Source: a virus. From it: a stretch of 35,219 nt of DNA. Below are positions 1 through 35,219 of the stretch, in pieces. Made by a program: the position numbers and the translations under genes. Where the stretch lies: IMG/VR virus record IMGVR_UViG_3300010885_056715, positions 1-35,219 of that record; one strand, given 5' to 3'. The first letter of the stretch is position 1. Every line of letters starts with the position of its first letter. The notes under the pieces are model-generated. The model was given only the letters and a program-made list of their open reading frames with translations. It searched no databases and was not told where the DNA came from.

Positions 1-89
1 GGCTCCCCCGCACACGCGGGGATCGACCCGCGCTGACGCACGGCCTTACCGCTCGCGGGGCGGCTCCCCCGCACACGCGGGGATCGACC
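1..89 (+). CRISPR. Type I-E-like mini-array: two repeats, one spacer
   Basis: Two identical 28-base repeats lie at 1-28 and 62-89 with a 33-base spacer at 29-61, giving the 61-base period of type I-E arrays. The repeat begins GGCTCCCCC and ends GGGGATCGACC. Its core CCCCGC-ACAC-GCGGGG forms the 6-bp hairpin expected for Cas6e processing, and the last eight bases GATCGACC would be the crRNA 5' handle. The pattern matches the E. coli repeat (GAGTTCCCC...GGGGATAAACC) in the same orientation, so transcription should run rightward. No third repeat occurs after 89. The window starts exactly on a repeat, so more repeats or a leader may lie to the left. No cas gene is visible anywhere in the window. 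Confidence 0.8.
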
Positions 90-138
90 TCTCGGCATCG
101 TGCGGGCGGCTCGTGGTGGCCGTGACCTGACGCCCGCC

Positions 139-190: not shown

Positions 191-240
191 GCTCCACCGG
201 GAGCGACCTTCCCCGGCGCACTGCGTCATCCGGCGCTTAT

Positions 241-259
241 GGTACAGATACGGTACAGC
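241..259. repeat. Arm-type repeat, left copy (GGTACAG pair)
   Basis: The 19-bp sequence GGTACAGATACGGTACAGC contains two GGTACAG heptamers 11 bases apart. The identical 19 bp recurs at 428-446, on the other side of the tRNA fragment. A partial inverted copy (CTGTACC) lies at 396-402. Such symmetric placement suggests tyrosine-integrase arm sites. Confidence 0.6.
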
Positions 260-295
260 ACCCTCTGAATCACCGATAAAACCTAATGAAAGCAG

Positions 296-344
296 CGGCT
301 TCCTAAGCCGAAGGTCGTGCGTTCAACTCGCACTGAGGGTACCA
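296..344 (+). other. attP core candidate: 3' part of tRNA-Arg(CCT)
   Basis: From the anticodon stem onward this reads as a tRNA. The anticodon loop TTCCTAA (300-306, anticodon CCT) is closed by CGGC/GCCG. A variable loop follows, then a perfect T arm GTGCG-TTCAACT-CGCAC (317-333), acceptor strand TGAGGGT (334-340), discriminator A and encoded CCA (342-344). The 5' part is missing: the only acceptor-like match (ACCCTC, 260-265) is 43 bases before the anticodon, and no D arm fits. Phages that integrate into tRNA genes carry such a 3' copy to rebuild the gene. The neighbouring integrase and flanking arm repeats support attP. Confidence 0.65.
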
Positions 345-395
345 CCAAAACAGCTTGTTTCCTGCGGTTTCTGATCCGATCCTCCCCGCAGCGAC

Positions 396-407
396 CTGTA
401 CCGTACC
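396..407. repeat. Inverted partial arm-type repeat
   Basis: CTGTACCGTACC is the reverse complement of GGTACGGTACAG and so matches the right part of the 19-bp arm repeat in inverted orientation. It is followed at 409-421 by a small hairpin CCCCG-ATT-CGGGG, which lacks a T-run and is only a weak terminator candidate for the leftward integrase transcript. Confidence 0.45.
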
Positions 408-427
408 GCCCCGATTCGGGGAGTTAC

Positions 428-446
428 GGTACAGATACGGTACAGC
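428..446. repeat. Arm-type repeat, right copy (GGTACAG pair)
   Basis: Exact second copy of the 19-bp repeat at 241-259, ending one base before the integrase stop codon (TGA, 450-448). Having matching arm sites on both sides of the core is the arrangement expected in attP and not in a single prophage junction. Confidence 0.6.
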
Positions 447-447
447 G

Positions 448-1641
448 TCACTGGCGCCGTCGCAGGGGGATGACCACCGCCGGGTCGCTCGCCAGCGCGG
501 CGGCGAGTCCCATGTCGACGGCGGGCCGGGCGGCGTCCGATCGGTATCGGCCGAGGTAGCGTTGCGTCGTTTCGAGATCGGCGTGCCCGAGCAGCCGTTG
601 GACGTCGCGCACACTGACGCCCGGGCGGCGGCTCATCTCTGTGGCGAACGTTCGGCGCGCGTCGTGCATCCCCGGCGCATCGTCGGGGAGCCCGGCCGAG
701 GCCCACGCTGCCGAGAGACGTGCCTCGATCCAATGGCCCCCGAGTGCGAGAGCCTTCCCGCTGAGGCCCACGGCGGACTCGCGCCACGCTGCGAGTTCGA
801 GCGCGAGGTCGGCGATGGTCGCAGGTACCGGCACGTCGCGCTCCTCGCGGTCCTTGGGGCGCCACGCCCCCCAGGCGCGCACGCGCACCACGTCTTTGCC
901 GACGTCCTTTGCCCGGAGGTGCCGTAGTTCGTCGACCCGTAGCCCGGTCTGCACCGCGACAGCCACGAGCACTGCCGCACCCCTCGCGTTGGCAGATTCG
1001 ATCGCCTCGTCAGCGCGGACGGAGGTCGACCGCGGCGGGTGCTCAAGCGCGCGGACGACCTGTGACCACTCAGCCGGCGAAGGGATGATCGGGTCGCGGT
1101 TGCGGGCAATCTCTTTAAGGTTCTTCCATGTGGAGAGAGCCCCCTCATCACAGAGGGGAGGCGTGCGGAGGGCCGCCCATCGCGCCATCGCTCGCACGAC
1201 CTGGATGGTGCGGTTGACGGTGGAGTCGCTGACCCCGCGGCGGTGCTCGGCCTCGACGTATCGGGCGAGCGTGGCCGTAGTGATTTGCTCGATGCGGTCG
1301 GCGCCGAGAGCCCCGACGAATGCAGCGAGACGGTAGGCGACGTTTTCGGCGTGGCGAGCAGACCAGCGCGAGCGGCACTCCTCCCCGAAGCGCCGGGAGA
1401 GCTCGATCAGATCCCCTTCACGGCCCGCAGTAGCAGCGCGCGGGTCGAGCTCGCCGCCCCCGAAGCGCTGGGCCGCGGCGCGATACGCGGTGGCGTGCGG
1501 GGTACCGTCAAGGGGGAGCCCGAGCGCCTGGCGGCCTTGGCCGGGGACGTGGCACCACCACTGACTGCCGCGGGGGAAAACGTGGAGCACGCCGCGCTTT
1601 CGTCGAGCCACCGCAGGAGCACGCTTCGTCGCAGACGCCAC
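448..1641 (-). CDS. int: Tyrosine recombinase (phage integrase)
   Basis: Catalyses site-specific recombination between the phage and bacterial attachment sites. The 397-residue length fits the family. Catalytic motifs are visible: the first Arg in TGLRVDELR (about 235), a Lys near 263, H-D-A-R-R (about 326-330), LLGH (about 353) and the nucleophile in TTQRYLG (about 362). Residues 80-160 look like the helical core-binding domain. GTG is taken as the start. It lies inside the excisionase-like gene, giving a 235-base overlap, so a later start is possible. This is the last gene of the leftward operon and points at the attachment core just beyond its stop, as usual for tRNA-integrating phages. 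Confidence 0.93.
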   Translation of the reverse strand: MASATKRAPAVARRKRGVLHVFPRGSQWWCHVPGQGRQALGLPLDGTPHATAYRAAAQRFGGGELDPRAATAGREGDLIELSRRFGEECRSRWSARHAENVAYRLAAFVGALGADRIEQITTATLARYVEAEHRRGVSDSTVNRTIQVVRAMARWAALRTPPLCDEGALSTWKNLKEIARNRDPIIPSPAEWSQVVRALEHPPRSTSVRADEAIESANARGAAVLVAVAVQTGLRVDELRHLRAKDVGKDVVRVRAWGAWRPKDREERDVPVPATIADLALELAAWRESAVGLSGKALALGGHWIEARLSAAWASAGLPDDAPGMHDARRTFATEMSRRPGVSVRDVQRLLGHADLETTQRYLGRYRSDAARPAVDMGLAAALASDPAVVIPLRRRQ

Positions 1642-1784
1642 TGATTACCGACCTTCGCCGCGGGCACTGCGCCCTCGGCGGCGAGACGGTACAGCACGTC
1701 GACCGACACGCGGCAAAGCGCCGCCGCTTCTGCAATCGTCAGCACGTCGCCGCCATCGATCAGAGCTACCGCGAGCGCGGTCAC
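1407..1784 (-). CDS. Excisionase-like HTH DNA-binding protein
   Basis: Residues 13-63 (starting DVLTIAEAAALCRVS, ending LLRWLDES) form the winged-helix motif of the excisionase/MerR-like family, which bends DNA at attachment sites and directs the integrase towards excision. The GTG start overlaps the stop of the upstream gene by GTGA, which decides the start. The frame then stays open for about 60 residues that overlap the integrase gene out of frame. That Ser/Ala/Arg-rich tail may be real, or may be a by-product of high GC. Sitting directly upstream of int fits a Xis role. It could also be a small regulator of the operon. Confidence 0.7.
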   Translation of the reverse strand: MTALAVALIDGGDVLTIAEAAALCRVSVDVLYRLAAEGAVPAAKVGNQWRLRRSVLLRWLDESAACSTFSPAAVSGGATSPAKAARRSGSPLTVPRTPPRIAPRPSASGAASSTRALLLRAVKGI

Positions 1785-1987
1785 GAGTGCACCTCGCAGA
1801 CGTCGCGTTCTGGCCCCAGCGTCCAGCCCTCCGCTGCCGCGAAAGCCGCCGCGGCATCCTCTCGGATCGTGTCGGGCGCAGTCACAATCCCCTCGCACCA
1901 CGCGGCGTCGCACCGCACCCACGCACACGGCACCTCAATCCGCAGTCCGCGAGCTGCGCCCACCAGCCATGTCACCCCTCGGCTCAT
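1781..1987 (-). CDS. Small zinc-ribbon-like protein
   Basis: This 68-residue protein starts MSRGVTWLVG at an ATGA overlap with the gene upstream and ends in a GTGA overlap with the excisionase-like gene, so it is part of a coupled chain. It has a C-x(4)-C pair (CDAAWC), an Ala-rich helix and a terminal C-x(2)-H (DVCEVH). This spacing is common in small phage zinc-knuckle proteins of unknown role. Metal binding is inferred from the Cys/His pattern. No function can be assigned. A longer upstream reading exists in the frame but would overlap the neighbour heavily. Confidence 0.65.
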   Translation of the reverse strand: MSRGVTWLVGAARGLRIEVPCAWVRCDAAWCEGIVTAPDTIREDAAAAFAAAEGWTLGPERDVCEVHS

Positions 1988-3892: not shown

Positions 3893-5281
3893 TCACGCCG
3901 CCTGGGCCAGCGCAGCGCGCTCCCGCGAGGCGTCAAGCGCGACGCGCTCCAGCGTCTGCGTCACGCCGATCAACGTGAGCCGCGCCACCCCCTCGGGTCG
4001 CGGTCGCTCCCCATCAATCGCCACGATGCGCTCCGCGGCAAGCGCAACAAAGCCCGCCCCGAGCGCCGCACCGTTGCAAGCCACCGACGACTCGATCCGC
4101 CGGCGGACGGTCATCTCCGCGAGGTGGTCGCGCCACCCGGCTTCGGTTTCGCGCCACGTCCCGTTGAGCGGGGGGATGTGCGAGGTGTCGCTGTCGAGCA
4201 CCAGGCGCGTCGTCGCGTTTGTGGTCTGGGCCGCTGCCACCGCGTCGGCGGTCGGCGCGTCGTTGCCCCTCGTGGGCGGCGGTGGAGGAGGCGCAAGCGC
4301 GGCGGTGATCCGCGCTTTCGCATCGTCAACGCCAAGCGCGCCGACGGTGGCGACCGCGACACCCATCACCCGAGTCTTGAGCAATTTCGGCATGGCGCCG
4401 CAGCCGCGGAGCACGCGCACCACATCAGCAACGACGCCGTCGCCTTCCTCGTCGTCGACGTGGCGATCGACCGCGGCGAGGCGGTCAAAGGCGAGCGCAA
4501 GGCTCAGGTCGAGGGTGCTGCCGCATATTGCACGCGCCTCGGACGCATTGAGGTGATAGCCGCGGGTCGCGAGGTGGCCGACCACCGCGTCAGCGACAGG
4601 TTTCGCTGACGTCCCGCCAAGCGCGTCGGAGTGCGCGCCGAAAACCGCTCGCACGCCGCTGATGTCTTCCGCCTCGAGGAGGTCCGCGGTGAACGCGAGG
4701 AGGCGATCAGGAGAGGCGGGTTGCGCTGGAGCCTCGTCGCGCACGAGCGTCGCCGCGCCGACGTCCGCGACCCGACCCTCGCTCACCTCATCGGGAGTGT
4801 AGAGGCCCATCGCCAGATCGGGGTACACCTCGCGCGCTAAGTCGGCGCTGCATCGGTGGCGAAGCATCTGCGCGGGGTAGGAGCCCCATGCCTGCGTTGA
4901 AAGGCGGGCGCGCTTAGCGTCCTCGGCGGTCCACGTCTTCCGCGTCGGGGTCGCGTCGCCGAGTCGGTGAGTCTCGATGGTGCACCGATCGGGCGTGCTC
5001 TCTAGCGTCTGCCACGACTGGCAGATGGTCGACGCGCGGACAATGCCCACGAGGAGGTCCGCGGAGAGTACCGGCTTCCCGCTGACCACGTGGATGCCGC
5101 GGAACGACTGCATCGGCGATAGGCCGAGCTCCATCCCGGTCAAGAGCACCACGAGCGCCTGCGATGGGTCGCGCACCGAACAGAGCCCGCTCTTTGCGGC
5201 GTGCGTCGCGAGCGCCTCCGCTTCATCCATTGTCTTAGGCGAAAGGCCGGTCGTAGCGCGCAAGCTGAGTTGTGTCGTCAT
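3893..5281 (-). CDS. RecT-like single-strand annealing protein
   Basis: A 462-residue protein from the ATG at 5281 (ATGA overlap upstream). The N-terminal 165 residues resemble phage RecT-family proteins: LLTGMELGLSPMQSFRGI (47-64), then HVVSGKPVLSADLLVGIVR, and later MLRHRCSADLAREVYPD with a following MGLYTPDE. RecT proteins anneal complementary strands and promote phage recombination. The C-terminal 300 residues are less typical and contain a poly-proline linker (APPPPPP, about 330), so the protein is longer than the usual 270-330 residues. No paired exonuclease is recognisable next to it. Its place in the leftward operon matches the red genes of lambda. Confidence 0.7.
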   Translation of the reverse strand: MTTQLSLRATTGLSPKTMDEAEALATHAAKSGLCSVRDPSQALVVLLTGMELGLSPMQSFRGIHVVSGKPVLSADLLVGIVRASTICQSWQTLESTPDRCTIETHRLGDATPTRKTWTAEDAKRARLSTQAWGSYPAQMLRHRCSADLAREVYPDLAMGLYTPDEVSEGRVADVGAATLVRDEAPAQPASPDRLLAFTADLLEAEDISGVRAVFGAHSDALGGTSAKPVADAVVGHLATRGYHLNASEARAICGSTLDLSLALAFDRLAAVDRHVDDEEGDGVVADVVRVLRGCGAMPKLLKTRVMGVAVATVGALGVDDAKARITAALAPPPPPPTRGNDAPTADAVAAAQTTNATTRLVLDSDTSHIPPLNGTWRETEAGWRDHLAEMTVRRRIESSVACNGAALGAGFVALAAERIVAIDGERPRPEGVARLTLIGVTQTLERVALDASRERAALAQAA

Positions 5282-9306: not shown

Positions 9307-10266
9307 ATGAGCGTCTATCGCAAGATCGACCCGCGCATGTGGGACGACGAGCGGTTCGTCGCCCTGTCCCCCGAAGCGAAGTTGGTGTGGGTGCTCATCC
9401 TTACCGGGCCGCACACCATGAGCCTCCCCGGGCTCTCCGTCTGCGGTAAGGCGGGGCTATCGGAAGCGTCTCGATACGGTATCGATACGGTATCGAAAGC
9501 CGTCGACGAACTCAGCGCCTCAGGCATGGTGGTCTTCAACGCCGCCGCCCGGGTGGTGCGCGTCCCCAACGCCCCGAAGTACAACCCATGCAGCAACGCG
9601 AAGGTGCTGACCGGGTGGCGCTCGCTCTGGAACTCCGTTCCTGAGTGCGCCGAAAAGTACCATCATGTCGCGAGCTTGCGCGCGTCGCTGGACTTTTCGC
9701 AGCCGTGGGTTCCTGCAGCGTGGGCGCACGCTTTCGGTACCCTATCGATACCCTATCGATACCGTATCGATAGGGTATCGATCTCAGGAGCAGGAGCAGG
9801 AGCACCAACAGGAACAGAACTCTCAGAGAGAGCCGAACTCGCCGCGGGTGCGGCGGTTCAGCCAGCGCCGCCCCTCAAACCCAAGCGCACGCCGAAGGCA
9901 CCGGCGACGCCAGAGCAGCCGCCCACCGACCCGACGGCACGGGCGGTGTTCGACGTCATCATCGCTGACCCGGTGCTCGCGGCCATCGTCGCCCGCCCGG
10001 CGGACCTCGCGACGCGCATGGTGGCCCCGGGCGCATACCCTGGCGTCAACGTCCTCTCCCAGGTGCTGCGGGCGGCGGCGTTCGTCGCAGGCGGCAAGCG
10101 GTCGTACCGCGACGGTCGGGCCTTCCTGCTCGGCTGGATGGGGCGGGCGGACATCGAGCCCGTAGCGCCGAAGGGTGGCCCACATACCCCCGCGCCCGTC
10201 GACCACCACGACCCCATCGAGGCCCAGCGCGCCATCTACCGCGCGCAGATCAAGGTCGCGTCGTGA
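9307..10266 (+). CDS. Replication initiator / helicase-loader protein
   Basis: A 319-residue protein starting MSVYRKIDPRMWDDERF, the typical start of phage replisome-organiser proteins (winged-helix N domain, residues 1-110, with LSPEAKLVWVLILTGPHT). A Pro/Lys-rich linker near 190-215 leads to a C-terminal helical domain that probably contacts the helicase. The gene contains two clusters of 11-bp iterons, so it likely binds an origin inside itself, as lambda O does. Its stop overlaps the helicase start. ATG at 9307 is chosen over an upstream GTG because it begins the conserved motif. Confidence 0.75.
   Translation: MSVYRKIDPRMWDDERFVALSPEAKLVWVLILTGPHTMSLPGLSVCGKAGLSEASRYGIDTVSKAVDELSASGMVVFNAAARVVRVPNAPKYNPCSNAKVLTGWRSLWNSVPECAEKYHHVASLRASLDFSQPWVPAAWAHAFGTLSIPYRYRIDRVSISGAGAGAPTGTELSERAELAAGAAVQPAPPLKPKRTPKAPATPEQPPTDPTARAVFDVIIADPVLAAIVARPADLATRMVAPGAYPGVNVLSQVLRAAAFVAGGKRSYRDGRAFLLGWMGRADIEPVAPKGGPHTPAPVDHHDPIEAQRAIYRAQIKVAS
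9475..9496 (+). repeat. Iteron cluster 1 (two 11-bp units)
   Basis: Two exact tandem copies of TACGGTATCGA at 9475-9485 and 9486-9496, preceded by TCGA. The same consensus, TA(S)(S)(S)TATCGA, recurs four times at 9738-9781. An 11-bp spacing places the units on one DNA face. Confidence 0.65.
9738..9781 (+). repeat. Iteron cluster 2 (four 11-bp units), candidate origin
   Basis: Four uninterrupted 11-bp units: TACCCTATCGA twice, TACCGTATCGA and TAGGGTATCGA. Since 11 is not a multiple of three, the repetition is not caused by a protein repeat. Together with cluster 1 this resembles an iteron-type replication origin inside the initiator gene. A purine-rich stretch with repeated CAGGAG follows at 9784-9803. 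Confidence 0.65.
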
Positions 10267-33302: not shown

Positions 33303-33961
33303 TCCCCCTCGACGTCGCTCTTCGTGTCGCCCGCAAGCGCGTCGCCACCGCGGGCGCTGAGCTCATCCTCCCCGACGACCTGCGCCGCGTCGCTGTCGTC
33401 GGCCTGGTCGCCGCGGGACACTCGCTCCAGGGCACCGGGATCACCAGCGACCACGTCGCACAGAACGTCACGATCACGCTCCCCGGCCTCCCCGGCGTGG
33501 CGTCCGATGCCCTCAGACTTATCCCTGTCGTCGGCCCTGCACTCGCCTCTCTCGGGCGCGCCAACGGGCGGTCGGCCATCTACCTCTCCCCCGCGGCCAT
33601 GCGCAGCGGCGAGGACCTCCTCGCGACCGTCGAGCACGAGCTCGGACACGTCGGCATGATCGCCGCGGGCGGGCTCGTCTACTGCGGCGTCTATCTGCTC
33701 GTCCCCGAAGCGCGGGCAGGCGGGGAGGCCCCCTGCTACGGCGCGAGCATGGCCGTGGACGTGGCGTGCGGGATGCCGCTGGCAGTAGCCGCATCGCGGG
33801 CGAAGTACTCCCTTGAGGGATACGGCCTCGATCCAGACGCGACGGCGCTCGCCCACGCGATCATCGACTCGGCCGCAGCCTCCATCGCAGCGACCGGAGA
33901 CTGCGGCGGCGCGGTCGCCGAGCTGCGGGCCGACCTGCTGCTCGAGGGGGTCGCGCTATGA
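33299..33961 (+). CDS. HExxH-containing protein in the lysis cassette
   Basis: A 220-residue protein from GTG at 33299 (GTGA overlap). It carries HELGH at 113-117 in the context TVEHELGHVGM, a zinc metallopeptidase signature. This is followed by a hydrophobic stretch (GMIAAGGLVYCGVYLLV) and a Cys/Gly segment (EAPCYGASMAVDVACG). I do not recognise the family. Placement between the lipoprotein and the M15-type peptidase suggests a role in lysis or in tail or envelope protein processing. A third zinc ligand is not obvious; candidates are acidic residues in EARAGGE. Confidence 0.6.
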   Translation: MIPLDVALRVARKRVATAGAELILPDDLRRVAVVGLVAAGHSLQGTGITSDHVAQNVTITLPGLPGVASDALRLIPVVGPALASLGRANGRSAIYLSPAAMRSGEDLLATVEHELGHVGMIAAGGLVYCGVYLLVPEARAGGEAPCYGASMAVDVACGMPLAVAASRAKYSLEGYGLDPDATALAHAIIDSAAASIAATGDCGGAVAELRADLLLEGVAL

Positions 33962-34761
33962 CCCCCGAGGCCATCGCGGCCGTCGAGTCGTCGTTGGTGT
34001 CGACGCGCTTCCTCGGCTGCTCTACGCGCGTCGCCCCGCGGCTCGCGGAGGTGCTCGCGACGGTCGAAGCCGCGCTGTATGACGAGTGGACGCGGGCGAT
34101 GCTCGGTGGCGCGGCAACGCAGACCTTCGCGGGGTGGCATGGCGTCCGAGGCTGCGGTGGATACCGCAAGGCCGCGGGATGGCATGGCAAGGGCCTCGCG
34201 ATCGACCTGAACTACAGCACCAACGGGTACAGCGCCACGCGACACACCAGCGCCCGCGGCGTAGTCTACGGTGGCGAGGCCGCGGGCGCGGCGATCCGTG
34301 GCGCGCGTGAGGCATTCGCCGACGCCTGCGACCGCGCCTGTGTCGCGCTTGACGGCGCGCCAGCGGACCTCGCTCCCCGCAAGGCGGGCGAGTCCACCGG
34401 GAGCGTGTGGGATCGCTGGCACCGCGTGAGCGAGGCCGTGCGCTACTACCTCGCTGCCGACTACCTCGCCGTCGATGCGCTCGACGTGGGCGAGGCGGAC
34501 GCGATCCCAGGCGTCGAGGTACCCCCGCAGATCGCGGCCGACTACCAGGCGCTCCGCGTGCCGCTCGTGGTCGGCCAGCCGCTGCCCAACCCACGGACCA
34601 CGCGCAACCCGGCGCGCGGGCTAATCGACCTCCCGCGCCACACCCTCGTCGCGCTAGCAGACGTCGGCGGGCTTCGCGTCGGAGGCTGCGACCTTGGCCG
34701 TGAGTCGGGCGACTGGATGCACCTGGACACCGCCAGCCGCATCGCCAGCGGCGCCGTATGA
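33958..34761 (+). CDS. Peptidase M15-like endolysin
   Basis: A 267-residue protein starting MTPEAIAAVESSLVSTRFLG at an ATGA overlap. GWHGKGLAIDL (75-85) matches the H-x(6)-D zinc motif of M15/VanY peptidases, and GDWMHLD (251-257) gives the third His ligand. Such enzymes cut peptide cross-bridges in the cell wall. There is no signal peptide, so release through a holin pore is expected. Residues 180-230 form a Pro/Arg-rich insertion. It is the main endolysin candidate. Confidence 0.75.
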   Translation: MTPEAIAAVESSLVSTRFLGCSTRVAPRLAEVLATVEAALYDEWTRAMLGGAATQTFAGWHGVRGCGGYRKAAGWHGKGLAIDLNYSTNGYSATRHTSARGVVYGGEAAGAAIRGAREAFADACDRACVALDGAPADLAPRKAGESTGSVWDRWHRVSEAVRYYLAADYLAVDALDVGEADAIPGVEVPPQIAADYQALRVPLVVGQPLPNPRTTRNPARGLIDLPRHTLVALADVGGLRVGGCDLGRESGDWMHLDTASRIASGAV

Positions 34762-35159
34762 CCGCGGCGTCGCTGCTCGCCCTCCTCGCGCTCGCATTCC
34801 CCGCAAGCGCGCACCTCCTGCGGCTCGACGTGGTGGCATCGCTGGTGCGCGCTGCCGACACTCACCACGTCCCTGCGCCGATCGTGGCCGCAGTGTCGTG
34901 GCTGGAGTCGCGCGCGGGCACCGCACCCCGCTACGCCTCCCTCGCGGGCGTCCGCATCAACCACGCCTACATTCGCAGCGACGCGCTCAGCGCCGACATT
35001 GCCGCGCGCTCCCTCGCCCGCCGTCGCGCCGAGTGCGGCGGGTGGCTGCGGGCTCTGGTGTCGTACAGGTGGGGGAGAGGGTGCTTAGCGCCCGACGCCA
35101 CCGGGTACGCCCCACGGGTGCTTGCCATCGCGCGGCGGCTCGGCCTCCCCGCGCACTGA
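34758..35159 (+). CDS. Lytic transglycosylase-like protein with signal sequence
   Basis: A 133-residue protein from ATG at 34758 (ATGA overlap). The N-terminal hydrophobic stretch SLLALLALAFPASAHLL is a secretion signal. VAAVSWLESRAG (43-54) resembles the catalytic E-S motif of soluble lytic transglycosylases, with Glu50 as the acid. The end (VSYRWGRGCLAPDATGYAPR, then VLAIARRLG) fits the helical lobe with an A-x-x-Y-like segment. The domain is short for the family. It would cleave the glycan strands, complementing the M15-like peptidase. Confidence 0.65.
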   Translation: MTAASLLALLALAFPASAHLLRLDVVASLVRAADTHHVPAPIVAAVSWLESRAGTAPRYASLAGVRINHAYIRSDALSADIAARSLARRRAECGGWLRALVSYRWGRGCLAPDATGYAPRVLAIARRLGLPAH

Positions 35160-35219
35160 CCCCCCCGCGGCGCTCGCGGACCTGGACGCTTGACATCGGG
35201 TCCGCAAAGAGGTCAAAGA
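35160..35219 (+). promoter_or_regulatory. End segment; candidate CRISPR leader if circular
   Basis: After the last stop, TTGACA (35190-35195) is followed by an AAAGAGGTCAAAGA end. If the molecule is circular, this segment joins directly to the first CRISPR repeat at position 1 and would be its leader. An inverted repeat GCGGACC (35176-35182) / GGTCCGC (35199-35205) overlaps the TTGACA and could instead be a terminator of the late genes. It has no T-run. Confidence 0.35.

Follow-up and report, generated by a model that had tools for sequence, protein, structure and literature searches.

Archaeal viruses carry CRISPR mini-arrays that have one or two spacers, host-type repeats and a leader but no cas genes, and whose spacers match sister viruses. 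Mini-arrays of bacteriophages and prophages, as described in a survey cited in PMC6858448 and in the review PMC11656645, are likewise cas-less, with host-type repeats and one or a few spacers; in the survey, as PMC6858448 cites it, they are reported without leaders. The spacer of the known virus mini-arrays matches a related virus in the majority of cases, not in all. Phages also carry solitary repeat units, or Racrs (PMC10651486), of which the type I-E examples inhibit the host I-E system.

Here we describe a repeat-spacer-repeat locus in a window of 35,219 nt, which is the whole IMG/VR virus record IMGVR_UViG_3300010885_056715, classed 'linear'. The locus shares with the archaeal virus mini-arrays the host-type repeats, the lack of cas genes and, putatively, the small number of spacers and the leader; it differs in belonging to a bacterial tailed temperate phage, in being of type I-E and in having a spacer for which no target was found. 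Unlike the bacterial phage mini-arrays, leaderless as far as these sources describe them, it appears to bear a leader and lies beside attP, and unlike a Racr it holds a spacer between two repeats. We propose, with a probability of about 0.6, that a temperate tailed phage, probably of a Myxococcota-like host, has a type I-E mini-array without cas genes between its late genes and its attP.

Results

The array occupies the first 90 bases of the window:

1-29, plus strand: CRISPR repeat 1, type I-E, 29 nt, an exact match to repeats of chromosomal I-E arrays
30-61, plus strand: spacer, 32 nt, without a protospacer match
62-90, plus strand: CRISPR repeat 2, the trailer-end copy, identical in its first 28 bases and with T as its 29th base

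GGCTCCCCCGCACACGCGGGGATCGACC stands at 1-28 and again, as an identical copy, at 62-89. No further match was found elsewhere in the window at up to 3 mismatches, and 100 shuffles gave 0 repeat matches. A sequence-only reading of this DNA had proposed a 28-base repeat and a 33-base spacer; the identical and unique copies were confirmed, but alignment to arrays in public genomes sets the true bounds of the repeat at 29 nt (GGCTCCCCCGCACACGCGGGGATCGACC followed by a base that varies, C in copy 1 and T in copy 2) with a 61-nt period, that is, a unit of 29 + 32. The locus thus has the dimensions of a type I-E array, with a 29-nt repeat, a 32-nt spacer and a CCCCGC-GCGGGG hairpin. GGCTCCCCCGCACACGCGGGGATCGACC is a genuine CRISPR repeat: public genomes contain long arrays built on its 26-nt core, with up to 77 exact copies in a single locus.

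Chromosomal type I-E arrays with this repeat are present in several phyla. In L007, from a Polyangiaceae genome, the identical 28-nt repeat directly adjoins cas7e-cas6e-cas1e-cas2e, and near-identical repeats adjoin annotated type I-E cas genes on Bosea and Pontibrevibacter plasmids. Judged by these neighbours the subtype is I-E, as had been proposed. The spread over several phyla means that the repeat does not name the host. Comparison with cellular arrays, suggested in the sequence-only reading, found the repeat exact in several bacterial genomes, one of them with adjacent I-E cas genes; a matching system in the phage's own host is putative. Contigs that bear arrays often break within them: those of the cellular loci L007 and L013 stop right behind the second repeat, with a single spacer, so assemblies can be cut inside arrays of this type. 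In L019, a lone perfect 29-nt repeat at 590-618 of the locus, on a 160-kb Myxococcaceae contig, is a candidate solitary-repeat unit or array remnant.

Among other viral records the exact repeat was absent, and two records had a related repeat. The 42-kb IMG/VR record IMGVR_UViG_3300033985_000086 (G354) holds five repeats of the window's repeat family (GTCTCCCCCGCGCACGCGGGGATCGACC), with phage genes around them and no cas genes:

L039 about 1656-1930, minus strand (G354:C1 about 4250-4514): I-E array of G354, five repeats

This array lies between a tail-fibre-type gene cluster and a DNA methyltransferase gene. It differs from that of the window in having four spacers, no leader-like sequence, a tail-fibre-type gene abutting it and, as far as seen, no attachment site beside it; 2 of the 4 spacers had no match in the phage collection. 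G354 is thus independent evidence that phages carry repeats of this family.

To the right of the array lie an attachment site and an integrase gene:

139-190, repeats on both strands: GGCCGATA at 139 (minus) and at 159, 171 and 183 (plus), 12-nt period, possible excisionase or accessory sites
237-259, plus strand: left (P) arm-like site, paired GGTACAG at 241 and 252, 96% identical to 424-446
291-344, plus strand: attP core, the 3' two-thirds of a tRNA-Arg(CCT) ending in CCA, without the tRNA 5' part (Rfam RF00005; Myxococcota homology)
391-446, plus strand: right (P') arm-like sites, GGTACAG at 396 (minus), 428 and 439, a motif found also before int in the relative G001
448-1641, minus strand: tyrosine integrase, 397 aa (PF00589, phrog_1)
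1599-1745, minus strand: HTH_17 excisionase-like domain beside int, in ORF 1407-1928 (PF12728, E 4.8e-14)

The Rfam tRNA model (RF00005) scores 291-344 just above its cut-off, and ARAGORN at default settings called no tRNA in the attP region. Myxococcota tRNA-Arg(CCT) genes align sharply from 291 on, the best with 88% identity over 52 nt and no difference in the first 28 bases, and the same comparison found no tRNA sequence left of 291. The integrase of G001 is an 83% identical protein, and the right-hand arm motif is kept upstream of its gene. By its layout, P-core-P' next to int, the site is a real attP. The array had been placed directly beside such a site; the attP next to int proved genuine, but its core lies about 200 bases from the array and does not adjoin it. 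Within the P' arm beside int, 391-438 form a near-perfect palindrome (CTGTACCGTACCGCCCCGA / TCGGGGAGTTACGGTACAG), which accounts for a spurious mir-486 match in Rfam.

The structure of the attachment site bears on the origin of the DNA to its left. When a phage integrates into a tRNA gene, the complete gene would be found at the prophage junction on the int side. A complete tRNA is thus expected at an int-side host junction and is absent here, so that bases 1-258 belong to the phage or, with lower probability, to another element integrated in tandem. We rejected host chromosome left of the core as the main reading, given the missing tRNA 5' part and the arm-like sites on both sides. In a broader form of this explanation the window shows only the last two repeats, on the trailer side, of a long array in the host chromosome or in a tandem element at the same tRNA, and the contig happens to break at that point. 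The L007 and L013 contigs do stop likewise, and the same repeat is common in chromosomal arrays; against this stand the lack of a complete tRNA-Arg (ARAGORN finds none and the 5' part is absent), the arm sites on both sides of the core and the leader-like sequence at the opposite end of the record. We consider this explanation unlikely, its tandem-element part being possible, and the DNA left of the attP core is most likely phage.

The rest of the window has the gene content of a temperate tailed phage. It encodes, besides the integrase and its HTH_17 excisionase-like neighbour, HNH-endonuclease-like, RecT-like annealing and repressor-like proteins, a DnaD-like loader, a DnaB-like helicase, terminase, portal, scaffold and major head protein. 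No cas family was found in 16 window ORFs searched against PADLOC and in others searched against Pfam and PHROGs, some small ORFs lying outside the scan, which agrees with the lack of cas genes noted earlier. In the region of the DnaD-like gene, at window positions 9459-9782, ATCGATACGGTATCGATACGG-type direct and inverted repeats are clustered and resemble replication-origin iterons. The array is thus most likely located in virus DNA, as indicated by an attP without the tRNA 5' part, arms on both sides, int and the structural genes.

A search for the host with the tRNA sequence gave its best match in Myxococcota (88% over 52 nt), the best in Pseudomonadota being 82% over 55 nt, and none in sampled genomes of the phylum to which the 'Bacteroidia' MAG belongs. 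No exact host was found: the attP tRNA sequence had no match at up to 3 mismatches in 331 Myxococcota genomes, and 189 Myxococcota genomes held no integrase match at E 1e-40. The host is probably Myxococcota-like.

The leader of a type I-E array lies immediately 5' of repeat 1. Base 1 of the window is exactly the first base of the repeat, and at its opposite edge the record finishes, at 35219, with a leader-like sequence:

33958-35159, plus strand: final two late genes before the leader-like end, without a family match, putative lysis genes
35190-35219, plus strand: leader-like end, TTGACA...TCAAAGA, similar to the signature before repeat 1 in cellular arrays, which would abut repeat 1 in a circular genome

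The last late gene ends at 35159, and the record terminates in CTTGACATCGGGTCCGCAAAGAGGTCAAAGA. Cellular leaders of the same or similar repeats mostly end in AGA and often have TT[GA]ACA some 30-50 bases upstream. A six-base end profile built from 12 leaders ranks the window end CAAAGA among the best 0.07% of all positions. In 6 of the 12 leaders the leader zone contains TT[GA]ACA, compared with 0.14% of positions in this genome. Of the 70,320 cut points that this genome offers, just one, 35219, combines a CAAAGA-type end with TT[GA]ACA; the leader criteria were set after the window end was seen, and these odds need discounting. The CTTTGACA form common in leaders is matched only in part (CTTGACA). 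At 55% GC the window end only reaches the upper limit of the known leaders (30-55%), level with the least AT-rich of them. We found no sigma-70-like promoter in the leader-like stretch and no intrinsic terminator or sigma-70 promoter on the plus strand at the array. Overall, the last 30 bases look like the end of a type I-E leader.

That the leader-like end coincides with a record start at an exact repeat boundary is not easily put down to chance, and the record, though classed 'linear', probably represents a circular phage genome opened between its leader and repeat 1. It has no terminal repeat that would account for an assembler cut exactly at this boundary. The junction between the late genes and attP is covered by none of the close relatives G001, G346 and G347, which share blocks with the window and are related to it by integrase, terminase and late genes. 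Relatives of the phage stem from IMG 3300046001-3300046003. That the array is carried by the phage, as the sequence-only reading had it, is upheld on both flanks, with attP and int to its right and the late genes and leader-like sequence at the other record end.

As recorded, the array comprises two repeats and one spacer and touches the record edge. A phage-borne array might instead have more than one spacer, with the extra ones between the leader and base 1 and the assembly broken at a spacer-repeat boundary. A start at the exact first base of a repeat is what would be expected where the upstream spacer varies, and the 'linear' class fits as well. However, if all variants ran from the leader into a repeat, the contig should continue through that first repeat at its right end, and it stops before it. 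We regard several spacers as improbable; the array, at the record edge, likely has exactly one.

No protospacer for 30-61 was found in IMG/VR or among INPHARED phages with a search pattern of the spacer with every sixth base free, though the databases may lack the target; plasmids gave merely weak partial matches. A competing virus as the target, the earlier expectation, was therefore not borne out by the search of these collections and the window. A self-targeting spacer was rejected, the window having no match at up to 9 mismatches. The best spacer match anywhere in the loci, relatives included, was no better than a reversed control, and the spacers of 15 array-bearing loci gave nothing clearly beyond control against this phage and its relatives.

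A spacer without a known target would also fit an RNA anti-CRISPR, in which the array acts as a Racr-like decoy and not as a guide against competitors, and mobile elements are known to carry Racrs that inhibit type I-E systems (PMC10651486). The Racrs of that study, however, are solitary repeat units, and its survey sets arrays aside; the window has two full repeats at array spacing. Because two complete repeats framing a standard 32-nt spacer are the form of a normal crRNA unit, a decoy role is very unlikely. We favour superinfection exclusion or immunity as the function of the array, by analogy with the known virus mini-arrays (PMC6858448, PMC11656645).

Discussion

The order around the proposed circle would be late genes, leader, repeat, 32-nt spacer, repeat, P arm, tRNA-Arg core, P' arm and int. 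In the lysogen, the array would be expressed from its leader or through read-through transcription, host Cas6e would cleave its repeats and host Cascade would take up the phage crRNA. Cas3 would then destroy DNA with a matching protospacer, most likely from a competitor, be it a related phage or a plasmid.

If the leader is intact, the phage copy could also receive new spacers through host Cas1-Cas2. We suggest only tentatively, as a reading that is doubtful at present, that the window holds a leader-bearing, adaptation-competent type I-E mini-array at attP, where host Cas1-Cas2 writes spacers into the phage genome. Phage mini-arrays are already known, and the leader may be the unusual part. 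A leader of its own at the attachment site would make this a phage-owned locus that can take up spacers through canonical adaptation, and would allow a direct test of whether phages use the host adaptation machinery against rivals. If the array is indeed adaptation-competent, the phage would have a heritable, updatable immune memory that travels with it.
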